From Chloroflexota bacterium (lineage in GTDB: Bacteria; Chloroflexota; UBA11872; VXOZ01), in assembly GCA_958295775.1 (NCBI GenBank), contig CATQHC010000002.1:1077830-1141829 (forward strand): a stretch of DNA of 64,000 nt, given 5' to 3'. The notes below the pieces were generated by a model. The model did no database searches. It was given only the letters and a program-made list of their open reading frames with translations, and had not been told where the DNA came from. The position numbers and the translations under genes were made by a program. This document shows positions 1,453-23,483 of the stretch, one piece after another (position 1 is the first letter of the stretch; every line of letters begins with the position of its first letter).

Positions 1453-3174
1453 TCAGCCGTCCTGCCGACTGCGGTAACGCTCAGTTGCCTCAAAGTCCAA
1501 CTCGCCGCCAGACGTCACCACTACTCCATAGACTTCTCTGGCGCGTATTGGCGAAACCTTCTCATTGCGTACGTCATCCAGGACTAACTGCGGATCGCGT
1601 TCCAGCGGGTTGCCCCAACCGCCGGCCCCAGAGACCATGTGCCGAAACAGGTCGTTCTCGTAAATCGTCTCAGTCGCCTTACTCGTAAGCACCCGCGCCT
1701 CTGTGTCGGGGTTGAGGATGTTCTTGGAAGGCGCGCCGTCATGACCGCCGGCCAGCCCGTACGCGTGGATTTTATGTCGATCCGAACGCAATTGCAACGT
1801 GGCGCGCCGCTCGCGCAGGCGGTAGTCGCGCACCAACGCCAGGCCGCCGCGATACTTGCCGGCCCCTTCGGAGTCCGGCACGTAGCCGTAGCGCTCGATG
1901 CGCAAGGGAAGTTCGGCCTCAACCACTTCTACGGGGTTATTTGAGAAATTCACGACGATGCTTGCCATGGCGTCGGTACCATCGCTCCAGGGCTTACCTC
2001 CCCACGAACCGAAGAGGAATTCCAAGTAGACAAAAGGGTTGCCGTCGTCGTCATAGCCGCCGATGCTTACGCCGGTGTCGCCGCCTACCTCGCACGCCGG
2101 AATGCGCTCCGGCGCCAGCTTGGCCAGCGCGCCCATCACGGCGTTTGCAGTGCGGTACCCAGTGAGACCCCGCGCCGCCACCGGGGCGGGCATGCTGGGA
2201 TTGATAACAGAACTCTTCGGCGCAATCACCTCAATTGGGCGGAAATACCCCTCATTATTGGGGATTTCTTCTCCCATTAGGCTGCGCACACACGCGTAGA
2301 CCGCCGAACGCGTGAATGGTATTGGCGAGTTAATGCCGCCCCGCACTTGCGGCGCCGTACCCGCAAAGTCAACCGTCATCGAGTCACCGTGCACACGCAC
2401 GCTGACGGCAATGGGAATCGGTCCCGGATCGAACCCATCATCGTCAATGTAGTCCGTAAACTGGTATTCGCCGTCCGGGAAGCCGGCAATCGCCTGCCGC
2501 GCCAGCCGTTCCGTGTAAGCGAGCAGCGCAGAAAACCGCGCCTGCAGGTCCTCGTGTCCGTACCGTGCAAAGAGTGTCTTCACCCGCCGCTCGCCCACGT
2601 GGCAAGCGGAAAGTTGGGCGCGCAGGTCACCGAGCACGAGCCGGGGAACACGCACGTTCGCCCGAATCAGTTCAAAGACGGCTGCGTTGGGCTCACCGGC
2701 CGCATAGAGTTTGAGCGGCGGGATGCGAATACCTTCTTGGAAGATCTCCGTCGCGTCGCAGCCGTTCCCGCCTGCCACCATGCCGCCCACGTCGGCGTGG
2801 TGCGCAATGGAAACCAAATAACAGGCAAGGAGGCCATCCAAGAATACGGGCTTGAAGATGTAGATATCCGGCAAATGCGTGCCCCCGGCATAGGGATCGT
2901 TGAGCATGTACACGTCGCCGGGCTGCACGTCATCGCCAAAGGTGGCGAAGACACTTTCAATCGCGTGCGGCACCGAACCGAGATGCAGCGGCAGGGTCAA
3001 TCCTTGGGCAATGAGTTCGCCGCTCGGCTGACAGAGCGCGGTGGAAAAGTCCATGCTGTTTTTTAGATTGTTCGAATACGCCGTACGCAGCACCGTCATC
3101 GCCATCTCGTCCACCAGCGACTCCAGCGCGTTCTTGAGGATTTCCGTTTCAACCGGGTCGAACTCTCGGCTCAC
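1453..3174 (-). CDS. hyuB: Hydantoinase B/oxoprolinase family protein
   Basis: DPVETEILKNALESLVDEMAMTVLRTAYSNNLK, GDVYMLNDPYAGGTHLPD, GGxGGWGNPLERD. GTG start at 3174 overlaps the hyuA stop (GTGA); the ORF track start at 3234 is probably too long. Confidence 0.92.
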   Translation of the reverse strand: MSREFDPVETEILKNALESLVDEMAMTVLRTAYSNNLKNSMDFSTALCQPSGELIAQGLTLPLHLGSVPHAIESVFATFGDDVQPGDVYMLNDPYAGGTHLPDIYIFKPVFLDGLLACYLVSIAHHADVGGMVAGGNGCDATEIFQEGIRIPPLKLYAAGEPNAAVFELIRANVRVPRLVLGDLRAQLSACHVGERRVKTLFARYGHEDLQARFSALLAYTERLARQAIAGFPDGEYQFTDYIDDDGFDPGPIPIAVSVRVHGDSMTVDFAGTAPQVRGGINSPIPFTRSAVYACVRSLMGEEIPNNEGYFRPIEVIAPKSSVINPSMPAPVAARGLTGYRTANAVMGALAKLAPERIPACEVGGDTGVSIGGYDDDGNPFVYLEFLFGSWGGKPWSDGTDAMASIVVNFSNNPVEVVEAELPLRIERYGYVPDSEGAGKYRGGLALVRDYRLRERRATLQLRSDRHKIHAYGLAGGHDGAPSKNILNPDTEARVLTSKATETIYENDLFRHMVSGAGGWGNPLERDPQLVLDDVRNEKVSPIRAREVYGVVVTSGGELDFEATERYRSRQDG

Positions 3175-5264
3175 GTTGTTTCTTCTCCCACCGTGATCAC
3201 CACGTTGTCCCAGGCATCTCGTTTCACAGTGCATTTTGGTGGCACCAGAATGGTTGTGTCGTACTCTTCCACGATCAAAGGACCGGATTGGTCCTCGTTG
3301 CCAAGCTCGCTGCGCGCGCGCAAGGGTACTGTCCGCTCGCCAATTGCGGCGCCAAAGTACGCAGTCCGGTCTCTCGGACCGTCCACAGAGCCTCTACTCG
3401 TCGCTGTATTTCCCCACCTGTGCGCGCCTTCACGCGGCAGCGTCACCTCAACCCGCAGGTTTACCAGTTCCACGGGATCATCGGGCGCTTTGTGCCCATA
3501 GGTGCGCTCGTGCTCATTCTCGAAGGCTTTACGCATCGATGCCGGCTTAGACTCTTGAAAGGGGACGGTAAGTTCAAAGGACTGCCCGGCATAGCGTAGG
3601 TCCGCGAAGCGCTGCCATTCACCTTGGCGCCGGGTCTCATCGTCAACACCAAGCTCGCCGGCCAAGCGAGATTCTAAGCCTTGATATTGTTGGTTGATTT
3701 CCTCTTCACTTACGGTGTCGAGCGGCAGCAGCACGGTCTGGACGGCATGTTGGGAGACATCCACACAAAGGAGGCCGAGCGAGCTAAACAAACCCGGGAA
3801 GGGCGGCACGACTACCTGACGCACGCCAAGCTCCTGTGCCATTTCGGCAGCATGCAATGGCCCGCTGCCACCAAAGGCAAATAAGACAAAATCGGCAGGC
3901 GAACGACCACGTTCTACGGTGACTGCCCGCACGGCGCGGCTCATGTGTGAAACCGCGATACGATGGATTCCGTGGGCGGCATCAGCCACGCCCAGGCCCA
4001 GCGGCGCCGCGAGCCGGCTCTTCAGTATCGAATGTGCGTGAGTAGCGTCAATGGGTAGTTCACCGCCCAGGAAATGTGTCGGGTTCAAGAACCCGAGCGC
4101 CACGTTGGCGTCGGTGAGCGTCGGCTCTTCTCCGCCTAGGGAGTAGCAGACAGGGCCGGGCTCGGCGCCTGCGCTCTGCGGCCCCACACGGAGGCCACCG
4201 GCCGGATCGATCCACGCGATGCTGCCGCCCCCGGCTCCGACCTCGGCGATATCGATGGCGGGCACCCGCAAGGCATAGCCCGCGCCCCGCTGGAGCCGCG
4301 CGCTCAGGCTGATTCCGCCGCCGACCTCATAGTCATTCGTGCGGGTAATGCGTCCGTCTTCGATGACCGACGCTTTGGCGGTCGTGCCGCCCATGTCGAG
4401 TGTTATCGCGTTTGCGAGATTCATGGCGTTCGCCAGCGAAAGCGCGCCCATGACACCAGCGGCGGGTCCGGATTCAATTACGTGGATGGGCTGCTCCGCC
4501 GCTTTGGCGGCGCCCATCATGCCACCGGCGGACTGCATCATATACACCGGCGCGCGGATGCGCCGCTCGTCGAGGGACTCGTGCAGGCGGTTGAGATACG
4601 AGCGCATTACCGGTGCAATGTACGCGTTGATGACCGTCGTGCTGGTTCGCTCGTATTCGCGAATCTCAGGGAGAACGTGCGACGAAAGGGAAATGAACGC
4701 GTCGGGAGCCGCGGCCTGGAGCAGCGCGCCGATGCGTTCCTCATGCTCGGGATTACGATAGGCGTTGATGAGGCACACGGCAATCGACCGCACGCCCGCG
4801 TCCAGCAAATGGGCTATCGCCTCATGGACGCTGTCTTCATCGAGCTCGCGGACGACGTTTCCGTGCGTGTCGATGCGTTCGTCCACCTCTCGCCGCAGCG
4901 CCCGCGGCGCCAGCGGCTGCGGCGGCTCCCAATGCAGATCGTACAGCCGAGGCATACGCAGCCGCCGGATCTCCAGCACGTCGCGAAATCCCGCGGTGGT
5001 AATGAGGCCCGTCAGCGCTCCCTTGGCCTCGAGGATAGCATTGGTCGCCACGGTCGTGGCATGGATGACCTCATGTATGTCGGCGCTGGCAGCGCTCGTA
5101 TCGCGAATGAGCGCGTCAAGGCCCTGCACAATGCCTTGGGCAAAGTCGTCGGCGGTGGAAGATACCTTGGTCCACGCCCGCAGCCCTTGGGAATCCATGA
5201 AGACAAGGTCGGTGAACGTGCCCCCAATGTCGACACCGACACGCAGGGATGAATCCACAGGCAT
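3171..5264 (-). CDS. hyuA: Hydantoinase/oxoprolinase subunit A family protein
   Basis: VGVDIGGTFTDLVF at N-terminus, TLDMGGTTAKASVIEDG, GAGGGSIAWID; 697 aa. Confidence 0.94.
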   Translation of the reverse strand: MPVDSSLRVGVDIGGTFTDLVFMDSQGLRAWTKVSSTADDFAQGIVQGLDALIRDTSAASADIHEVIHATTVATNAILEAKGALTGLITTAGFRDVLEIRRLRMPRLYDLHWEPPQPLAPRALRREVDERIDTHGNVVRELDEDSVHEAIAHLLDAGVRSIAVCLINAYRNPEHEERIGALLQAAAPDAFISLSSHVLPEIREYERTSTTVINAYIAPVMRSYLNRLHESLDERRIRAPVYMMQSAGGMMGAAKAAEQPIHVIESGPAAGVMGALSLANAMNLANAITLDMGGTTAKASVIEDGRITRTNDYEVGGGISLSARLQRGAGYALRVPAIDIAEVGAGGGSIAWIDPAGGLRVGPQSAGAEPGPVCYSLGGEEPTLTDANVALGFLNPTHFLGGELPIDATHAHSILKSRLAAPLGLGVADAAHGIHRIAVSHMSRAVRAVTVERGRSPADFVLFAFGGSGPLHAAEMAQELGVRQVVVPPFPGLFSSLGLLCVDVSQHAVQTVLLPLDTVSEEEINQQYQGLESRLAGELGVDDETRRQGEWQRFADLRYAGQSFELTVPFQESKPASMRKAFENEHERTYGHKAPDDPVELVNLRVEVTLPREGAHRWGNTATSRGSVDGPRDRTAYFGAAIGERTVPLRARSELGNEDQSGPLIVEEYDTTILVPPKCTVKRDAWDNVVITVGEETT

Positions 5265-5267
5265 CGC

Positions 5268-6017
5268 CTAGACGGTCAGAGGAACGGGCTGCGCGACTGG
5301 CGCCAGCTCGAACAGCCTGCCATAGCCGGGAATCGCGGCCGTGTGGCCCAATGCACGGAGGCACTGCCAGTAGGTCGCCTGGTTGCTCGTCACCACCGGT
5401 ATACCCAGGTCCTCCTCAAGCGCTTGAATGACGTCCATGGTGCGGAGATTGGTGCAGCTAATGAAGAGTGCGTCGGCATCCGGAGCTACGTGGTCGCGGG
5501 CAAAGCGGTACGTCTCCTCCAGCGGCACCACGCCAATGTCGAATGCCGTCAGAATGCTCATTCCGGCTTGGCTTACCACGTCGAAACCCCAACTCTGCAA
5601 GAACCTAACTTCCAGGTCATTGAGCTCAGGAATGTACGGCGTGACCATGGCTACGCGCTGTGCCCCCAGCGCGCGCAAGCCCCCGGCAACCGCACCGGCA
5701 GTGGTCACTGCCTCGATCTGGCTGCCGCCTCTCAACCGGGCACGCAAGGATTCTTCGCCATCGGTGCCTTCGAAGAAACTGCCGGCCGTACAGGCAAAGG
5801 CGATGACATCGACGTTCGCACTGAGCAGTTCGTCCACGCCGCGATCAACGTGTGCGCACATCTGGGCCATATCGTCCGCATCCGAGCGGGAGTTACGCAT
5901 ACGGGTAGCGTATACGGCGTATCCGTCAGGTAGCAGCGCACAGCCTTCCGGCTCCACCACGGTATTCACCGAGGGTACCAGCAAACCGACGCGTCCGCGC
6001 CAACCAAACATGCTCAC
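5268..6017 (-). CDS. Asp/Glu racemase superfamily protein (maleate isomerase / arylmalonate decarboxylase-like)
   Basis: GLLVPSVNTVVEPE, FACTAGSFFEG, FISCTNLRTMDVIQALEEDLGIPVVTSNQATYW; same operon as hyuAB. Confidence 0.85.
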   Translation of the reverse strand: MSMFGWRGRVGLLVPSVNTVVEPEGCALLPDGYAVYATRMRNSRSDADDMAQMCAHVDRGVDELLSANVDVIAFACTAGSFFEGTDGEESLRARLRGGSQIEAVTTAGAVAGGLRALGAQRVAMVTPYIPELNDLEVRFLQSWGFDVVSQAGMSILTAFDIGVVPLEETYRFARDHVAPDADALFISCTNLRTMDVIQALEEDLGIPVVTSNQATYWQCLRALGHTAAIPGYGRLFELAPVAQPVPLTV

Positions 6018-11960: not shown

Positions 11961-12980
11961 CTAGCCACGAGCCAGAGCAATCTCCGCCCCGTCAAACGCC
12001 CGGCACGTAATACGCACACGCCGTTCGCCAACCGCAACGGGGCTCACATTGCCATCCGGCCCTTGTACCTGCAACGGGCCCGGATCTTCCGCGAATGAAA
12101 CCACAAGCGTCAACTCGCCTTCTTCTATTTGCGGAGGAAGGTCAGGGATTTCCACGGCAATAGTGGCATGATCCTCCGATTCCTGGCTTACGCGGGTAGC
12201 ACAGTGGCGCCGCAGGTAGGCATAGCGTACGACGTCGTCCGGATTCGCGGCCCACATGCGGTCGCCAAAGAGCGTACGCATCTGGTCGAAGCGCTCCTCC
12301 AGCGCACGCGGCGAAATGCATTTGTGGCCCTGCGGCACCTTATACATCACTAAGTGAGTCACGTCCACCAACCACTGCCCCTGCACGCGCTCCGGCTCGA
12401 ATCCGCCGCGCGAGAGCCACTCAGGCAAGAACTCTATTTCGTCGTCCTCGGAGAGACGGTTGCGCCAGATGCTGAACGGATCGAAGTCGGGGGCATTCGT
12501 GTGTTCCGCGTCGTTGGAGGCGCGTGTCAGACCGAGATAGCCCGGCACTCGTGCCACCCATGCCCGCACCGTGTCGTAGACCTCAAAGCTGTTCCATGAC
12601 GAGAAAATAGGCACAGGTTGACCGAGGGCCTGTTCCAAAATGTGGTACGACTCCACAATCTCCTGCGCATAGTCAATTCGGCTCGGATCCCGCAACGGTG
12701 GGTGCGAGTAACTGTGGTTGCTGATGCTCCAGCCCTGCGACAGGAGAAACTTCAAGTGCTCCGGCCCCATGTGGAAGTAGTCGTTCAACGAACTGCGCTC
12801 GACGTGGCGTTTCTCTCCCAATTGCCCGGCGACCACTGCCACGTCGCCCGGAATGTGGTACTGCTGCGCGAGGGGAAACGCGTTGGCCAAACAGTCGATG
12901 GTGCCCTCGTCAAAGACCACCGAGTAGACGAACGCCGCGTCTTCTTTCCACGGTGCAACGTCTATGGACGTGATACGCAT
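11961..12980 (-). CDS. Polysaccharide deacetylase-like (NodB-fold) protein
   Basis: VFDEGTIDCLANAFPLAQQYHIPGDVAVV and WSISNHSYSHPPL resemble NodB motifs 1 and 2. Confidence 0.7.
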   Translation of the reverse strand: MRITSIDVAPWKEDAAFVYSVVFDEGTIDCLANAFPLAQQYHIPGDVAVVAGQLGEKRHVERSSLNDYFHMGPEHLKFLLSQGWSISNHSYSHPPLRDPSRIDYAQEIVESYHILEQALGQPVPIFSSWNSFEVYDTVRAWVARVPGYLGLTRASNDAEHTNAPDFDPFSIWRNRLSEDDEIEFLPEWLSRGGFEPERVQGQWLVDVTHLVMYKVPQGHKCISPRALEERFDQMRTLFGDRMWAANPDDVVRYAYLRRHCATRVSQESEDHATIAVEIPDLPPQIEEGELTLVVSFAEDPGPLQVQGPDGNVSPVAVGERRVRITCRAFDGAEIALARG

Positions 12981-13359: not shown

Positions 13360-14757
13360 TCAATGAATCCGTGCCGAGTCGTAGACGCCCGCCTTGCCGA
13401 TCTCAAGTGCGTTGACCTGCACCCAGACCTCACCTGGGTCTGAGTCTCCGTCAAGTTCAAGCGAAACAGACACTCGCTCAAGCCCTGGAACGGCCGCAAT
13501 GCAATGTCCGATTTGACGCCGGATCAGTAGGGCCGATTCCTCGCGGTTAGCGCCGGGATCGGCAGCGGACTTTGGGTCGCCGTTAAATGCAACCGTAAGC
13601 ATCTTTGCAACATCGAGCGCGCCGGTGTTTTCCACAACAATGTCGGCCACAAGCCGGCCATTCTCGCGGCGCACCTCTGATGAGTTGCCGTCAATACGCA
13701 ACCCCGCCGCAAGCTCTTGGGGCGTCAATGAGACCGCCCGGTAGGCATCGAAGATGCCATGGCCGAGCAGCGGGTCCCAACCGTTGCCCTGTGACGTATT
13801 GCGCAGAATCTCTCGTATTTCCCGATTGGATAGATGCGGATAGCGTGAGAACGCCAGCGCCGCGACACCGCCGCCAAAGGCCGATGCCATGCAGCCGCCC
13901 TCAAACGGAATGTAATCCAGGTCGCCGCCGGTTCCCCACACAGACTCGGTGGGGTCGTCCGTATTGCGCTCACCGCCGGGCGTGGCCGCCTCCACGTAGT
14001 CTGCCGATGCCGCGATGTTCGCTGCTTGACCATGCCGGTTCGTCGAACCGACGGCAAAGACGCTGTCAACGCCGGCATTCACGGTCGCTACCCGCCTACC
14101 GCGATTGTCGGCCGTGCCTTTGAATACCAGGCAACCGGACTGATAGGCATAATCGAGCGCCTCGATCAAGCCGATGTTGTCGTAGGGATAGCTGAAGTCG
14201 GTCCCCTTATAAAACAGGGGGACGCCGTCCGTGTGGTCCATGGTGATGTAGCCGTGGGGCATTACGAGCACCTTGGCCCCGTGATCAACTGCATAGCGTA
14301 CTGCGCGCGGCCAACTCTTCTGGTGGTGCGGCTCGTAGCCGACACGCAAGACCATGATGGGACACTTGGGAGCGGTTGCGGCTACTTCTCCCACGACAAA
14401 GGCATGGTGTCCGCGATGATACATCGTATCCGAGCGCAACCCTTCGTATTCAAGGGTGGCGTCCTCCTCGGCAAAGTCCCAGCCGTGCACGTCGCCCCGC
14501 GTTGGTCGCGGATTCACCCACAGGTGACCCTCGTGATCAGGGTGATACCGATAGCCCAAGTCGATTAGGGCCACGATAACGTCGGGGCTGCCCTGTGTTA
14601 TGGCGTGCGCCTCCGGCACTCGCATTTGATCCAGCGCCCAATCATACGGCTCGCGCACGCCCTCCGGCAGTACGCCACTTTGCTTCTCAGCGATGGCCAT
14701 CTCTACCTCCTCTTGCAAACGTGAATATTCTCGGCTATTGGGGTCAACCTTGGTCAT
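13360..14757 (-). CDS. S8/subtilase-family protein with predicted Cys nucleophile
   Basis: PDVIVALIDLGYRYHPDHEGHLWVNP (Asp), YHRGHHAFVVGEVAA (His), GTADNRG (oxyanion Asn), GGCMASAFGGGVAALA at the usual GTSMAxPHVAGVAAL site. Confidence 0.85.
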   Translation of the reverse strand: MTKVDPNSREYSRLQEEVEMAIAEKQSGVLPEGVREPYDWALDQMRVPEAHAITQGSPDVIVALIDLGYRYHPDHEGHLWVNPRPTRGDVHGWDFAEEDATLEYEGLRSDTMYHRGHHAFVVGEVAATAPKCPIMVLRVGYEPHHQKSWPRAVRYAVDHGAKVLVMPHGYITMDHTDGVPLFYKGTDFSYPYDNIGLIEALDYAYQSGCLVFKGTADNRGRRVATVNAGVDSVFAVGSTNRHGQAANIAASADYVEAATPGGERNTDDPTESVWGTGGDLDYIPFEGGCMASAFGGGVAALAFSRYPHLSNREIREILRNTSQGNGWDPLLGHGIFDAYRAVSLTPQELAAGLRIDGNSSEVRRENGRLVADIVVENTGALDVAKMLTVAFNGDPKSAADPGANREESALLIRRQIGHCIAAVPGLERVSVSLELDGDSDPGEVWVQVNALEIGKAGVYDSARIH

Positions 14758-14875
14758 CTACGCTTTCGCGGGCATCCATCTACTCCGCGCACTGCCATGA
14801 TGACCGCCCTTGATCAAAGTCGCGAAGCCATGCAATTTTCGGGAATGACGTATTGAGGTGCTGTTTCTTTGTAGC

Positions 14876-14894: not shown

Positions 14895-14956
14895 TCCTAG
14901 GAGTATGTGCGCGCCAATGCGTTGTACGCTAGTAAACTGTTGAAAGGACAAGATGG

Positions 14957-14976
14957 ATTCCCGCGAATGCGGGAAT
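14957..14976. repeat. attcccgc-gaat-gcgggaat palindrome (tggattcccgc...gcgggaatgacg family)
   Basis: Perfect 8-bp arms; related copies at 13285, 17424 and 21827. Confidence 0.8.
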
Positions 14977-15140
14977 GACGCACGACGCCTCCCTTTCGTT
15001 ACCCTCCTGCAATCCCTCACCTGCAGCCCTCTTGCTACATACAAACTACGGTCAGAAAGCCGACCGCACTATTCAGTCCTAAATCTGCCCAAAGCAAGGG
15101 CCTAGTGCTTCCCGCTTGGGCCGGAACCAGGACCTAGCAT

Positions 15141-17417: not shown

Positions 17418-19256
17418 CTAGACTCCGGCTTTCGCCGGACTGACAGACGGCTCCAACCAAATTGGGCTTGTCCACGCGCGGTTGCCGTCACTCTGTCGTA
17501 CCCGCAGGTAGCAGTAGTGGACATCCATCGGTGAGTACCGCAGCGGCACCTCGTCTGCCAATTGCACGTGCTGTTGCCGGGGCGCATAGCTTCTTGCCGT
17601 GTCGCCGTTTACTACTAGGTCGATGCGTTCGATTTGCGCCGTACCGACCACATCCGCCGTGAAGCCAAAGCGGTCCGCCTGCACCGTGGAACCCATCCAC
17701 TCGCCGTTCACGCGAAAATCGACGATCATGCGCACGCCGCTTGTCGCGTAGCAGCGCCGGTTGAAGAGCGCGTCGAAGATGGACGGCCTATCCAGCCGGT
17801 CCGCCCAAACGCCGGTGAGCCCGGCTGCTCCGGTCAGGGGCCCCGGTTCCTTGTAGGGATTGGCAGGCCGGCTGTCGTGGGTGTCGCTCCCGCTCACGAA
17901 GCCCAGCTTCACGCCTTGCATCAGGTACTGGTTGATCTTCTCCTCCTCCACCTCTCCGTCCGTTCTCTGCTTCTGAAAAATCTCTGCCAGATGTTCTTGG
18001 ACGTAGAAGTGAGTATGGAAGTGACCGTGCATCAGGGCGCCCCGGCGCTTCATTTCGCGATAGAACTCTTGATAGTCATTGCAGAAAACCGTATCGGCGT
18101 GAAAACGCGCCTGGAGTTTCGGATCGTGTGCCGCGGGCCGATCTTCGCAGAAAACTGGCGGCTGTCCCGCAATCTCCGGAAAGAAAGCATGGCGGTGGCT
18201 ACCGTCGGGAGTAGTGCCGAATTCCGCTGAAGGCAGCGCGACGAACTCCCCGGGCAGGTCGTACTGTTGCCACGCATCCTGGAGCTTTTCCCACGTTTCT
18301 TTGATAGAAATACTGTAGGAGAACAACTGGCCGCCGGCAAAGTCCAGGTCATTCACATCTTTGCCCCAGGCAAAGTGTTCTACTATGGGGCGCTGGCTAA
18401 AGAGCATCCCATGGGGATCGCCCCAAAAGAGCGAGAAGGGTGGCGGCTCTTCTGCGACCCGCACTGGGTTGCTCACCGCCGTGATGCCCCGATACGTCGC
18501 CGTGACATAGTCCACCGGCCCCCGCACGGGAACCGTCCCTACGGCGCTGAACGAACTGAATGCAACGCTTGTCTCGCCACTGCCGGAACGCAAGGTCACC
18601 TCTCCCTGGGCATCGCGTACTGGATTGCCAAACCTATCGGTGACGACGACGCGTGTGGCCGCTTGCCCTGTGGCGTGAGAAGGCGTGGTTACTTGTAAAG
18701 CAGCCGGTTCGGCTTCCTTGATCGCGAGGGGATGACACTCCAAAAGGGACAATTCCGCGTCGCGCGGCAGGAAGTAGTGGTGCTTATCGCGTTCGGGGTG
18801 GTAGAACGTAAGCTCGCCAGACGGGTCCTCGACCAGCCAGAAGCGGAAGGCATCGATGGCATTGCGGGGGAGCAAGAAGCCGTCAGGGGCAGTGCGCAGT
18901 TGCACCGTAACGCTCTCTGCGGGAGTCACTGCGCCCGCAACGCACGTCACGTGCACCGCGTGGAGGAATTCAGGCGCCGGCGCATGAATATCAAACGTCC
19001 GCACCACGCCGCCAGCAACGAGCGCCTCGGCTTCCCATACCGACCCCACCGGACCACGGACCGCTATGGAGTCCGGCCAATCAAAGTTGAGCACCCACTC
19101 GTCAAGCTGGCGAATGTCGAAGAAGAACCAGAGGTTTCCACCCGTCTGCAAGCCACCTGCCGGCGGCGTGTAGTGAAGCTGCAACGTGACCGTTTCAGCA
19201 ACTTGCAGCGGGCCATCAACGCTGACCCGAAATCGCCCGCTCTTTCCCCAAGACAT
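17418..19256 (-). CDS. DUF3604/PHP-like protein, paralog A
   Basis: LFWGDPHGMLFSQRP, ALMHGHFHTHFYVQEHL, GFVSGSDTHDSRPANP; near-duplicate of 19601-21415. Confidence 0.75.
   Translation of the reverse strand: MSWGKSGRFRVSVDGPLQVAETVTLQLHYTPPAGGLQTGGNLWFFFDIRQLDEWVLNFDWPDSIAVRGPVGSVWEAEALVAGGVVRTFDIHAPAPEFLHAVHVTCVAGAVTPAESVTVQLRTAPDGFLLPRNAIDAFRFWLVEDPSGELTFYHPERDKHHYFLPRDAELSLLECHPLAIKEAEPAALQVTTPSHATGQAATRVVVTDRFGNPVRDAQGEVTLRSGSGETSVAFSSFSAVGTVPVRGPVDYVTATYRGITAVSNPVRVAEEPPPFSLFWGDPHGMLFSQRPIVEHFAWGKDVNDLDFAGGQLFSYSISIKETWEKLQDAWQQYDLPGEFVALPSAEFGTTPDGSHRHAFFPEIAGQPPVFCEDRPAAHDPKLQARFHADTVFCNDYQEFYREMKRRGALMHGHFHTHFYVQEHLAEIFQKQRTDGEVEEEKINQYLMQGVKLGFVSGSDTHDSRPANPYKEPGPLTGAAGLTGVWADRLDRPSIFDALFNRRCYATSGVRMIVDFRVNGEWMGSTVQADRFGFTADVVGTAQIERIDLVVNGDTARSYAPRQQHVQLADEVPLRYSPMDVHYCYLRVRQSDGNRAWTSPIWLEPSVSPAKAGV
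17421..17450. repeat. Palindromic repeat (gactccggctttcgccggactgacag) abutting and overlapping a coding end
   Basis: tccggc-tttc-gccgga. Encodes the ...SVSPAKAGV C-terminus of paralog A. Confidence 0.7.
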
Positions 19257-19369
19257 CGCCTTTGCTCCTTAGGTTCTACCGCTTGAGGTGACAGATTAAC
19301 AATACTCTCGTGCTACGGTACCCTTTTACAAACACGCGTCCCGGCAGTCCGCACACGAGCAAACGCAAC

Positions 19370-19460
19370 GACTTCGGGACAACGCGGAGACTTCGGGACA
19401 ACGCGGAGACTTCGCGCCATCGCGGAGACTTCGCGCCAACGCGGCGACTTCACGCCAAAG
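19370..19460. repeat. Direct tandem array of 19-bp units (about 4.7 copies)
   Basis: gacttcgggacaacgcgga x2, gacttcgcgccatcgcgga, gacttcgcgccaacgcggc, then gacttcacgccaaa. Confidence 0.9.
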
Positions 19461-19600
19461 TTATGTTGACTACCCGATCTGCCCGCCAGCTTGGGTTGGG
19501 CTCGCGCAATGCCAGTGCCGGTCAAAATCCCGCCTTCTACCACTCCGTATTTTTGCAGCGGGATAGCGTCCCAGCCCTCAAGTCCACTTTTCTGTGCCGT

Positions 19601-21415
19601 CTAGGCCAAGGACTCCAACCAAATAGGGCTCGTCCACGCGCGGTTGCCGTCGCTCTGCCGCACGCGCAAGTAGCAGTAGTTCGCTCCTACAGGAGAGAAT
19701 CGCAGCGGCACCTCGTCTTCCAACTGCACGTGCTGTCGGTTGGGCGTGTAGCTTCTGGCCGTATCGCCATTCACAACCAGGTCGATCTGTTCGATATCCG
19801 CCGTGCCCACCACGTCCGCCGTGAATCCAAAGCGGTCCGCCTGCACCGTGGAGCCCACCCACGCGCCGTTCACGCGAAAGTCAACGATGATGCGCACGCC
19901 GGTGGTGGCGTAGCAGCGCCGGTTGGAGAGCGCGTCAAAGAGCGTTGGGCGGTCGAGCCGCTCCGCCCAGACTCCCGTCAGTCCGGCAGGACCGGACGGG
20001 CCCGGCTCCTTGTAGGGATTCGCGGGTCGATTGTCGTGAGTATCGCTGCCGCTCACGATGCCGAGCTTCACGCCCCGCATCAGGAATTGGTTGATCTTCT
20101 CTTCTTCAGTAACCCCGTCGGTCTGCTGTTTCTGGTAAATCTCGGCCAGGTGTTCCTGTACATAGAAGTGGGTATGAAAGTGACCGTGAATGAGTGCGCC
20201 CCGGCGTTTCATTTCACGGTAGAACTCCTGATAGTCGCGGCAATACACCGTGTCGGGATGATAGCGCGCGTGGAGCTTGGGATCGTTGGCTCCGGGACGG
20301 TCTTCACAGAACACCGGCGGCTGGCCGGCAATCTGCGGAAAGAAGCCGTGACGATGACTGCCGTCGGGGCCGGTCGCGAATTCCGCTGAAGGCAAGGCTA
20401 CGAATTCCCCCGGCAGGTCATACTGCGCCCACGCGTCCTGCAATTCATCCCAGATCTCGCTGATGCAAATGCTGTATGAAAAGAGCTGCCCGCCAGCAAA
20501 GTCAAGGTCGTTTACGTCTTTGCCCCAGGCGAAGTGCTCGACAATCGGGCGTTGGTTGAAGAGCATGCCGTGGGGATCGCCCCAGTAGAGCGCATACGGA
20601 GACGTATCCGCATCCACACGCACCGGATTACTTGCACCCTCAATGCCCTCATACACAGCCGTCACACGATCAGCAGGAGCCTGAACCGGTAGCACCCCCG
20701 CTGCGCTAAACGAGTTTAGAGAAGTGGTTGTCTCACCGCTGCTTGTGCGCAGGGTCACTTCACCCTCGGCATCGTGCACGGGATTGCCGAAACTATCGGT
20801 GACGACAACGCGCGTATTCGCTTGACCTGTAGTGTGCGAGGGCGTCGTAACTTGCAGCACGGTCGGTGCGGCGGCGGTAATAGCAAGTGGATTGCTCTCC
20901 AGCACCGAGAGTTCCACCGCCCGTGGCAGGAAGTAGTAGTACTTATCGCGCTCGGGATGATACAGCGTGAGCTCGCCTGACGGATCTTCCACCAGCCAGA
21001 AGCGGAATGCTTCGATCGCGTTCTGCGGCAGCACAAAACCCTCGGGAGCGGTGTTGAGGTCTATGGAAATCCGGTCCTGTTCCGCCAATGCGCCCGCGAC
21101 GCACTTGACGTGCAGCGCGTGAAGGAACTCCGGCGCCGGCGGATGTATATCGAACGTACGCATTGTGCCGCCGTTGACAAGTGCCTTTGCTTCCCACGCA
21201 GTGCCCGCGGGCCCCTTGACGGATATGCCCCCGCTCGAATCATACCCATGCGTGCGCTCGCCGAATTGCCGAATGTCATAGAATATCCAGAGATTGCCGC
21301 CGGTCTGCATGCCCCCCGCGGGCGGTGTGTAATGCAACGCCAACGCAACCGTCTCCGCTACCTGCAGCGGCCCCTCAGCGCTGACGTGGAACCGTCCGTT
21401 GGCACTCACAGACAT
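19601..21415 (-). CDS. DUF3604/PHP-like protein, paralog B
   Basis: YWGDPHGMLFNQRPIVEHFAWGKDVNDLDFAGGQLFSYSI, LIHGHFHTHFYVQEHL; collinear with paralog A throughout. Confidence 0.75.
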   Translation of the reverse strand: MSVSANGRFHVSAEGPLQVAETVALALHYTPPAGGMQTGGNLWIFYDIRQFGERTHGYDSSGGISVKGPAGTAWEAKALVNGGTMRTFDIHPPAPEFLHALHVKCVAGALAEQDRISIDLNTAPEGFVLPQNAIEAFRFWLVEDPSGELTLYHPERDKYYYFLPRAVELSVLESNPLAITAAAPTVLQVTTPSHTTGQANTRVVVTDSFGNPVHDAEGEVTLRTSSGETTTSLNSFSAAGVLPVQAPADRVTAVYEGIEGASNPVRVDADTSPYALYWGDPHGMLFNQRPIVEHFAWGKDVNDLDFAGGQLFSYSICISEIWDELQDAWAQYDLPGEFVALPSAEFATGPDGSHRHGFFPQIAGQPPVFCEDRPGANDPKLHARYHPDTVYCRDYQEFYREMKRRGALIHGHFHTHFYVQEHLAEIYQKQQTDGVTEEEKINQFLMRGVKLGIVSGSDTHDNRPANPYKEPGPSGPAGLTGVWAERLDRPTLFDALSNRRCYATTGVRIIVDFRVNGAWVGSTVQADRFGFTADVVGTADIEQIDLVVNGDTARSYTPNRQHVQLEDEVPLRFSPVGANYCYLRVRQSDGNRAWTSPIWLESLA

Positions 21416-21573
21416 AGTTAACTGTTACCTTTCGTCTGACTGCTTGAATTGGAGCATCTTAAGCACTATAGCTCTGCGGTATCGTATCACAGGAAGCGGC
21501 AGGGTGCTCTCGGTCAGCGCCTGATGTCGGGGCGGTTCGCTTCCACGCTTGCCAACATGCAGTACCGCGCACT

Positions 21574-21777
21574 ACGGAGAACATGGATTCCGCGCCCTCG
21601 CGCGGGGCGAGCGCCTGATGTAGGGGCGGTTCGCGAACCGCCTCTACGCAGAATTGCTCTCCCTCGTTTGCAAGCATTCTGGCACCGCACAACACGGAGA
21701 ACATGGATTCCGCGCCCCCGCGCGGGGCGAGCGCCTGATGTAGGGGCGGTTCGCGAACCGCCTCTACGCAGAATTGC
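21574..21777. repeat. Tandem 120-bp-period repeat containing the ggggcggttcgcgaaccgcc palindrome
   Basis: 21574-21657 and 21694-21777 are identical over 84 bp apart from T/C at 21598/21718. Partial copies flank at about 21512 and 21814. Confidence 0.92.
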
Positions 21778-21826
21778 ATCGCCACGCCTAAAAGCGTGCA
21801 GGCATTGTGCATGACGGAGAAGATGG

Positions 21827-21846
21827 ATTCCCGTTTTCACGGGAAT
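21827..21846. repeat. attcccgt-tttc-acgggaat palindrome
   Basis: Perfect 8-bp arms within agatggattcccg...gggaatgacg. Confidence 0.75.
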
Positions 21847-21908
21847 GACGGACTGCGTTGCCACGACAATGCAGTCGTTGTGCTTGGAATCCTGATGATG
21901 AGGACGGA

Positions 21909-23483
21909 CTAGAATACCCGGCGCGCGTCCTCGATCCAAATCGGACTCGACCACGCCATCTCGCCGTCCTCCTGGGTCACCCGGACGTAATACCAGTCCG
22001 CGCGGTCTTGCGGCATCTCCAGCTCATCGAGCGACAAGACACACTCCCAGCCGGGCCGTTCCACCACATGCCAGTCGCAGTTGTTCTTTACCACAACCAC
22101 CCTGGCAATTGGCCCGGCGCCGTGGACGCGGACGCGCATCTGCTTGGGCGGGGTCTGCACGCTGATGGTTTCGCCCATGGGTTGGTTATCCACGTCGAAG
22201 TCGAGATAGATGCGCACGCCGGTCGTGCCGATGGCGCGACGCTGCCAAAGCGAACTGAACATGGCATCGCGCTCGCGGCGGCGGGCCCACAGACCCGTCA
22301 TGCCGGCGTGGTGGTTGAACGTCGTCAACTTGATGGGCAGGTGGGCGATTTGCACGCTGCTGGTGGCGCGGCCGTCGTGGCTCTCGCTGCCCCCCACAAA
22401 GCCAAAGCGAAAGCCCTGCCGCAGACCGTCCTGCAAGAAGTGTCCGGTGGCTTCATAGGGGGGATACTCGGCTTGGGGTTCGTCCCATTGCGTCCGTTCA
22501 TTCCTCCCCTTGAGGGCGTAGGGCTCGCCCTCGTGCTCGCTGCTGCCCCAATGGCTGTAGACCTCCATCAGGCGCTCGAACTCCGGGTCCATGGTCTCCC
22601 AATTGTGCCAGATGCGATTGCCCAGGCGCGCGGGGTGATGGGGTATCGAAAGAATGTCCCTGCCGGTTCGGGAAAGGCTTCTGAAGACGTTGAAGAGGTC
22701 CTGCGGCGTGTTTGATCCTTTCCAATTGCTGGAAATGAGCGGCATGTCGCCGTGACGGAAAATCACGTTGCGGTGGCCGCAATCGGCGTCCGGGCCCCGG
22801 TTCCACGACCACTCGTAACCCAGCAGCGTCACGAATCGCTCCGGCTGGTTGTAGAACTCCGCGCCCTCTTGAATCTCGCGCCACTCGTCCGTGCTGAGGG
22901 CGTAATCATGATCGGTCAGCGCCGTAAAGTCCAAGTGCACCACGTCGCGGGCAAAGCGATATACCTCATCGACGGTAGCGGGTCCATAGCTCCACAGGAG
23001 AGGATCCGTGCGCTTACGGCTGGGGTTTTCCAAGCGGTGGCAGTGCAAGTCGCCCCAGTAGAGTTTGTGGTCGCCCCTGTACAAGTAGCCGGGCGCCCAA
23101 CTGGGATTGCTGACAGCCTCGATGCCTGTCTCACGGTCCCGCGCCCGCACGCGAAAGACCCGGTCCTTCTCAGATACCCGGCCCCGTACGGCGTGGTGGC
23201 TGTCGTACTCCGGCAGCATGGGCACGGCTGCCGGGACCTCACCGCCGGCTCCTTCAATTGAGAGTTCCAGGTGGGCGCTCTGCTTGGGTAAGTGAAACCC
23301 CCATTGGTCCCGCAGTTCAAGACCGATCTTAAACTCGCCATTGCGCACGTCCGGCGACACTATGCTAGGCACGTTGACGCGGATTTCTGCCAGTGCTGGT
23401 GTGCCCTTATAGTCCAGCGGCAGCCGAATGAGATTCGGGTCGAATTCTACGGCGCTCATCAGTTCACTCCTCACCACGCTCAC
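21909..23483 (-). CDS. DUF3604/PHP-like protein, paralog C (intact first motif)
   Basis: LYWGDLHCHRLENPS, HLDFTALTDHDYAL, RFVTLLGYEWSW, FRFGFVGGSESHDGR. Confidence 0.85.
   Translation of the reverse strand: MSVVRSELMSAVEFDPNLIRLPLDYKGTPALAEIRVNVPSIVSPDVRNGEFKIGLELRDQWGFHLPKQSAHLELSIEGAGGEVPAAVPMLPEYDSHHAVRGRVSEKDRVFRVRARDRETGIEAVSNPSWAPGYLYRGDHKLYWGDLHCHRLENPSRKRTDPLLWSYGPATVDEVYRFARDVVHLDFTALTDHDYALSTDEWREIQEGAEFYNQPERFVTLLGYEWSWNRGPDADCGHRNVIFRHGDMPLISSNWKGSNTPQDLFNVFRSLSRTGRDILSIPHHPARLGNRIWHNWETMDPEFERLMEVYSHWGSSEHEGEPYALKGRNERTQWDEPQAEYPPYEATGHFLQDGLRQGFRFGFVGGSESHDGRATSSVQIAHLPIKLTTFNHHAGMTGLWARRRERDAMFSSLWQRRAIGTTGVRIYLDFDVDNQPMGETISVQTPPKQMRVRVHGAGPIARVVVVKNNCDWHVVERPGWECVLSLDELEMPQDRADWYYVRVTQEDGEMAWSSPIWIEDARRVF

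Follow-up and report, generated by a model that had tools for sequence, protein, structure and literature searches.

The gene and its catalytic positions

In the window, the whole 64,000-nucleotide stretch of Chloroflexota DNA analysed here, an open reading frame of 465 amino acids on the minus strand (13360-14757) encodes a protein that matches the Peptidase_S8 family (PF00082) over residues 59-334, scoring 51.3 bits where the cut-off is 21.8 (E=1.4e-13). The translation contains FEGGCMASAFGGGVAALA and GGCMASAFGGGVAALA, the latter in agreement with the transcription given in an earlier, sequence-only reading of this DNA. An in-frame stop immediately precedes the ATG of this longest frame, and the second ATG is at 14700. 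Because an AGGAGG motif lies ahead of the second ATG, orthologs from the same genus begin there (at MAI(A/T)E), and one of them has a stop codon within the upstream stretch, ATG 14700 is the likely translation start, to judge from the sequence; residues are numbered from this methionine, M20 of the 465-residue frame.

Table 1. Features of the subtilase locus, in window coordinates
Feature	Position	Strand	Basis
Cys-subtilase gene (clade A)	13360..14700	-	446 aa from likely start; PF00082, 51.3 bits; longest ORF extends to 14757
AGGAGG, Shine-Dalgarno-like	14706..14711	-	5 bases ahead of ATG 14700; sequence reading
Catalytic Asp codon (D47; Asp32 of subtilisin BPN')	14560..14562	-	1gns profile alignment
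Catalytic His codon (H98; His64)	14407..14409	-	1gns profile alignment and 24-row alignment
Clade-specific insert, residues 153-175, PxFYxGTDFxxPxDN	14176..14244	-	at substrate-binding loop position; putative role
Oxyanion Asn codon (N199; Asn155)	14104..14106	-	Asn in 12/12 clade A and 4/4 clade B rows
Nucleophile Cys codon TGC (C270; Ser221)	13891..13893	-	1gns profile alignment
Ala274 codon (Pro225 of BPN')	13879..13881	-	1gns alignment; Pro225Ala is the second subtiligase mutation
C-terminal beta-rich domain, residues 327-446	13363..13722	-	homologous to the domain of the clade B paralog
Partner gene, NodB-type polysaccharide-deacetylase family (PF01522)	11961..12980	-	next co-directional gene, 5/5 genus genomes

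The sequence-only reading had proposed a natural Ser-to-Cys change at the nucleophile of a subtilase, with the Asp, His and oxyanion Asn intact and with neither a signal peptide nor a clear prodomain, and had suggested a cytosolic thiol-subtilase acting as a ligase or transferase, or else a regulated non-protease. Alignment of a profile of nine orthologs (alignment A2) against 1gns, a subtilisin BPN' variant, confirms the change, placing C270 at residue 221 with no different Ser at the nucleophile site, and bears out D47, H98 and N199 as the other catalytic positions. The absence of a visible signal peptide or prodomain likewise holds for the window protein. The cytosolic assignment fits this protein as well, but the N-termini of two planctomycete homologs resemble signal peptides by eye. 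As a whole, the earlier interpretation is partly supported.

The catalytic His, the first His of GHHAFVVG, was assigned by the 1gns profile together with a wider alignment of 24 rows, in which D47 also aligns; the MAFFT alignment of clades A and B (defined below) is off by one motif. An earlier His, in 'YH', was ruled out, as it is Gln in two orthologs. Both D47 and H98 are invariant across clade A, as is N199, which lies in the Asn155 region of 1gns in a column that the wider MAFFT alignment offsets by one residue relative to the Ser proteins. Two further candidates were rejected: S273, three residues after C270, as an alternative nucleophile (A, C or I in other members), and a Cys113-Cys270 pair, of which there is no sign, since several Ser subtilases also have Cys at the position of C113.

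The AF2 model of the window protein (pLDDT 84.9, pTM 0.87, with low confidence at residues 155-173) contains a helix, residues 269-286, that begins at the Cys, as in subtilisin. The best Foldseek matches of the model in the PDB are the peptiligase structures 7am3 (E=1.7e-19, TM 0.82 over the target) and 7am4 (E=3.7e-19); they rank just above ordinary natural subtilisins by a small margin, to which a common loop deletion may contribute. By single sequence, the best PDB match is thermitase.

Distribution and origin of the cysteine

Orthologs with 85-91% identity are encoded in four genomes of the same genus; together with the window protein and more distant homologs, they make up clade A. GTDB was scanned, at one genome per species for 85,462 species, with peptide patterns (GWD..., DV.VA.I...) that lie outside the nucleophile motif, so that there was no selection for Cys and Ser-type members were not filtered out. 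Besides three genus records that had already been identified, the scan returned four additional orthologs with 46-54% identity: L030, L031 and L033 from Armatimonadota or close to it (the genome of L030 falling in the same phylum sample as that of L031), and L032 from Planctomycetaceae. Three more homologs (L063, L064 and L066) and a fragment (L065), which stops before the nucleophile site and is left out of the counts, were added from 291 Armatimonadota genomes and two planctomycete samples of 394 and 257 genomes.

The motif GGCMA is present in all 12 clade A members in which the site is covered, the window protein and 11 homologs from Chloroflexota, Armatimonadota and Planctomycetota, with identity of about 50% between phyla; the Cys, for which the sequence-only reading had left conservation in close orthologs to be checked, is thus kept throughout. 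The possibility that the Cys is a chance substitution or a sequencing error in one genome is refuted, because it is constant in 12/12 while the adjacent Gly and Ala codons vary synonymously and, counting the second subclade described below, it occurs in 16 independent sequences from three phyla. No Ser-type member of clade A was found in the GTDB scan, and no further relatives at E <= 1e-30 in the Armatimonadota (291 genomes) or planctomycete (394 and 257 genomes) samples; the family is rare. A phage or plasmid origin was rejected, with zero matches among viral contigs and plasmids.

The source genome encodes a second S8 protein, 33% identical to the window protein (contig C2, 780583-781968; L069:8565-10049), which, with orthologs in three sister genomes, constitutes clade B. 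A PF00082 search of this genome detects these two S8 genes only, both of the Cys type. The clade B paralog likewise has GGCMA at the nucleophile and has Glu at the position of the catalytic Asp; among 399 Chloroflexota genomes, the clade is confined to the same genus. Clades A and B both carry an insert that follows the substrate-binding strand, and their C-terminal beta domains are homologous (hhalign E=6.5e-6). The neighbors of the clade B gene include a gene for an M14 carboxypeptidase-like protein and genes that, by eye, resemble the sarcosine-oxidase and glutamine-synthetase types.

In a tree of 56 catalytic domains from which the nucleophile motif columns were omitted, the 16 Cys proteins (12 of clade A and four of clade B) are separated from the other subtilases by a branch with support of 97/89, and of 98/95 after the insert columns and long rows were also removed. 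The nucleophile is Cys in all 16 and Ser in 39 of the 40 other subtilases compared, a set picked by similarity to the query and thus no census of S8. The sequence comparisons therefore indicate that the natural Cys-nucleophile subtilases form one clade, with a single origin. By descent these proteins belong to the S8 fold family, with which (subtilisin, thermitase) they share the fold and the order and sequence context of the Asp, His, Asn and nucleophile positions, yet on sequence grounds they would not be classed as serine peptidases, because the nucleophile is Cys in 16/16. A separate case is the subtilase of locus L009 (G075:C9), whose nucleophile motif reads SSTAQAAAHVSG and whose His motif reads NGTHVAG; it is probably inactive.

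Among the NCBIfam models, the best match is that of the mycosins (TIGR03921), with 97.3 bits for the window protein and 211.8 for the clade B paralog; membership was rejected, as neither score reaches the curated cut-off of 278.75. The mycosin family comprises type VII secretion proteases, exported and membrane-anchored Ser enzymes encoded in ESX loci. The clade B paralog also resembles, weakly, the PatA/PatG cyanobactin proteases (TIGR03895), at 54.7 bits against a cut-off of 421, and these, unlike the paralog, have a Ser nucleophile. PatG is a subtilase with natural acyl transfer (macrocyclisation); no RiPP gene set was seen in the annotated neighborhoods. A search of open-licence papers turned up no natural subtilase with a Cys nucleophile, and Cys-subtilisins are treated as engineered variants in a review of peptide ligases (PMC6895249); such a protein may have been noted before in other sources, such as a peptidase database.

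Substitutions accompanying the cysteine

Subtilases are textbook serine peptidases, and laboratory Ser-to-Cys conversion almost abolishes their hydrolytic activity. Thiol-subtilisin, with S221C, is weak, subtiligase (S221C/P225A) is an active ligase, and peptiligase carries the same pair of substitutions in a calcium-independent, loop-deleted subtilisin.

The natural Cys clade differs from other S8 proteins at several sites besides the nucleophile. Position 225 is Ala, Gly or Ser in 16/16 Cys proteins and never Pro, as against Pro in 32/40 others, and position 220 is Gly in 16/16, as against Thr in 38/40. Clade A alone has Gly65 -> His, Ser125 -> Pro and Leu126 -> His, and the spacing between His64 and the AP motif is 12 residues in this clade versus 21-23 in all others (22 in clade B), so that the calcium-loop segment located between these two points is missing in clade A and retained in clade B. 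The conserved insert, the C-terminal beta domain and the lack of a visible prodomain are further departures from S8.

When residue 225 of the engineered Cys enzyme is Pro, synthesis reaches 6% and the synthesis-to-hydrolysis ratio is 0.2, whereas Ala, Gly and Ser give ratios of 4.5, 4.6 and 6.1, respectively, the values being those of engineered enzymes with activated ester donors (PMC7921005). The thiol-subtilase or ligase idea gains weight from these parallels, because a non-Pro residue at 225 and the loss of the calcium-loop segment are both design features of subtiligase and peptiligase. This match, a chemical analogy, is the best support for the idea that the enzyme is active, works through a thioester and can accommodate acyl transfer. 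The likeness to subtiligase, peptiligase and omniligase in the Cys and in position 225 extends over the whole natural clade, whereas the loop deletion and the peptiligase structures as top Foldseek matches concern clade A. The correlation at 225 amounts to one evolutionary event, because all 16 Cys proteins belong to a single lineage, and Pro225 is also absent from 8/40 other subtilases. The engineered ligases differ from the natural proteins as laboratory enzymes with about 22% identity and a different substrate cleft, in which residue 222 is P or M (always Met in the natural Cys clade), and any ligase function of the natural clade would be predicted from this comparison.

We consider it rather probable that these proteins are active Cys-subtilases that form a thioester, with acyl transfer as the favored outcome. 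In such a mechanism, the His equivalent to H98 would activate the Cys thiol, the acyl group of a specific amide or ester substrate would move to the Cys to yield a thioester, and an amine rather than water would preferentially resolve it, resulting in acyl transfer, transpeptidation or amide formation. The substrate strand is remodeled, with Ser125 -> Pro, Leu126 -> His and the conserved insert. The replacement of Thr220 by Gly in all Cys members and that of Asp by Glu in clade B, as read from the alignments, count against this explanation.

The same two replacements, along with the remodeled strand, can be accommodated by a pseudoenzyme that has lost catalysis and whose retained fold serves in binding, scaffolding or redox sensing, the Cys having a structural, metal-related or redox role. 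We regard this alternative as improbable: the four catalytic positions are invariant in clade A over about 50% identity, where the loss of some would usually be expected, and the other invariant Cys, C113, is also found in several Ser subtilases. Retention of the triad makes a non-catalytic role less likely.

The NodB-type partner and gene neighborhood

The gene that follows the subtilase gene in the genus lies at a distance of 280-550 bases in the loci measured, and its NodB-type product retains the Asp and His-x3-His positions; the predicted structure of this protein is poor (pLDDT 55), and its sole PDB sequence match, 6dq3, is weak (E=0.0063). In Armatimonadota, a member of the NodB-type family adjoins the subtilase in four genomes (G101, G362, G370 and G102), in G102 upstream rather than downstream; in G104 the NodB-type gene is on a different contig, and in G365 both genes are close to contig ends. 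Among the 291 Armatimonadota genomes, all six that encode the subtilase are included in the eight with a strong match to the partner (Fisher p=3.5e-11, the true significance being lower because the genomes are related). No NodB-type partner was seen in the 13-20 kb covered at the loci of the two planctomycete homologs.

The Armatimonadota clusters additionally contain Gfo/Idh/MocA dehydrogenases, a DegT-type aminotransferase, an isochorismatase-like protein and MtaA-like URO-D proteins, a content that points to small-molecule, perhaps amino-sugar, metabolism and not to protein digestion. Varying combinations of these genes with the NodB-type gene and usually the Cys-subtilase are found at L030:267-10403, L033:5487-10564 and L031:5956-9452, and a cluster without the Cys-subtilase at L120:4432-8957. 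The enzyme of Chloroflexota and Armatimonadota is probably specialized and intracellular, with the neighboring NodB-type hydrolase as its working partner, rather than a digestive protease.

Ligase activity does not follow from the Cys alone, because natural Cys hydrolases such as papain and its relatives hydrolyze well. The proteins might accordingly be cysteine peptidases or amidases of narrow specificity that use water to release the thioester and whose substrates would be small amides or peptides from the linked pathway. The retained catalytic triad is compatible with this alternative, and so are the many hydrolases and amino-compound enzymes among the neighbors: M24 creatinase-like and NodB-type proteins in the genus, and M14 carboxypeptidase-like, isochorismatase-like and agmatinase-like proteins in Armatimonadota. 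The M14 carboxypeptidase-like gene is a second recurring neighbor, adjoining the subtilase of L030 and lying near the clade B gene. On the other side, the replacement of Pro225 and the loss of the calcium loop fit a ligase design, thiol-subtilisin is a weak hydrolase (PMC7921005), and Ser-to-Cys swaps in other hydrolases are reported to have mostly destroyed activity (PMC6642262). We judge such a hydrolase to be rather unlikely, albeit a stronger contender than the pseudoenzyme.

Within the preferred thioester-forming mechanism, we tentatively suggest, as a less than even possibility, that the clade represents a natural subtiligase, that is, an amide-bond-forming or acyl-transferring enzyme that would have been reached independently through S221C and the loss of Pro225 and the calcium loop, and would function with the NodB-type hydrolase in a pathway of small-molecule or peptide modification. 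The fixation of the Cys in a single event and its retention across three phyla imply that a Ser-to-Cys change can be functional in evolution. With the natural clade one can ask directly whether evolution takes Cys-subtilases towards acyl transfer, and the clade is a possible source of new peptide-ligation catalysts of non-BPN' origin.

Elsewhere in the window, three co-directional paralogs of CehA/McbA (DUF3604)-type metallohydrolases (17418-23483, minus strand) differ in copy number among sister genomes, and a hydantoinase-A-like gene lies beside an Asp/Glu racemase- or maleate isomerase-like gene (3171-6017, minus strand; identified by eye) in an arrangement conserved in the genus. A REP-like palindrome, CATTCCCGC..GCGGGAATC, is present as a single copy, and there are three copies of its half, GTCATTCCCG, versus 0.11 expected by chance; these palindrome and half sites, at 14956-14977, 14840-14849 and 21840-21849, are in or near intergenic DNA.
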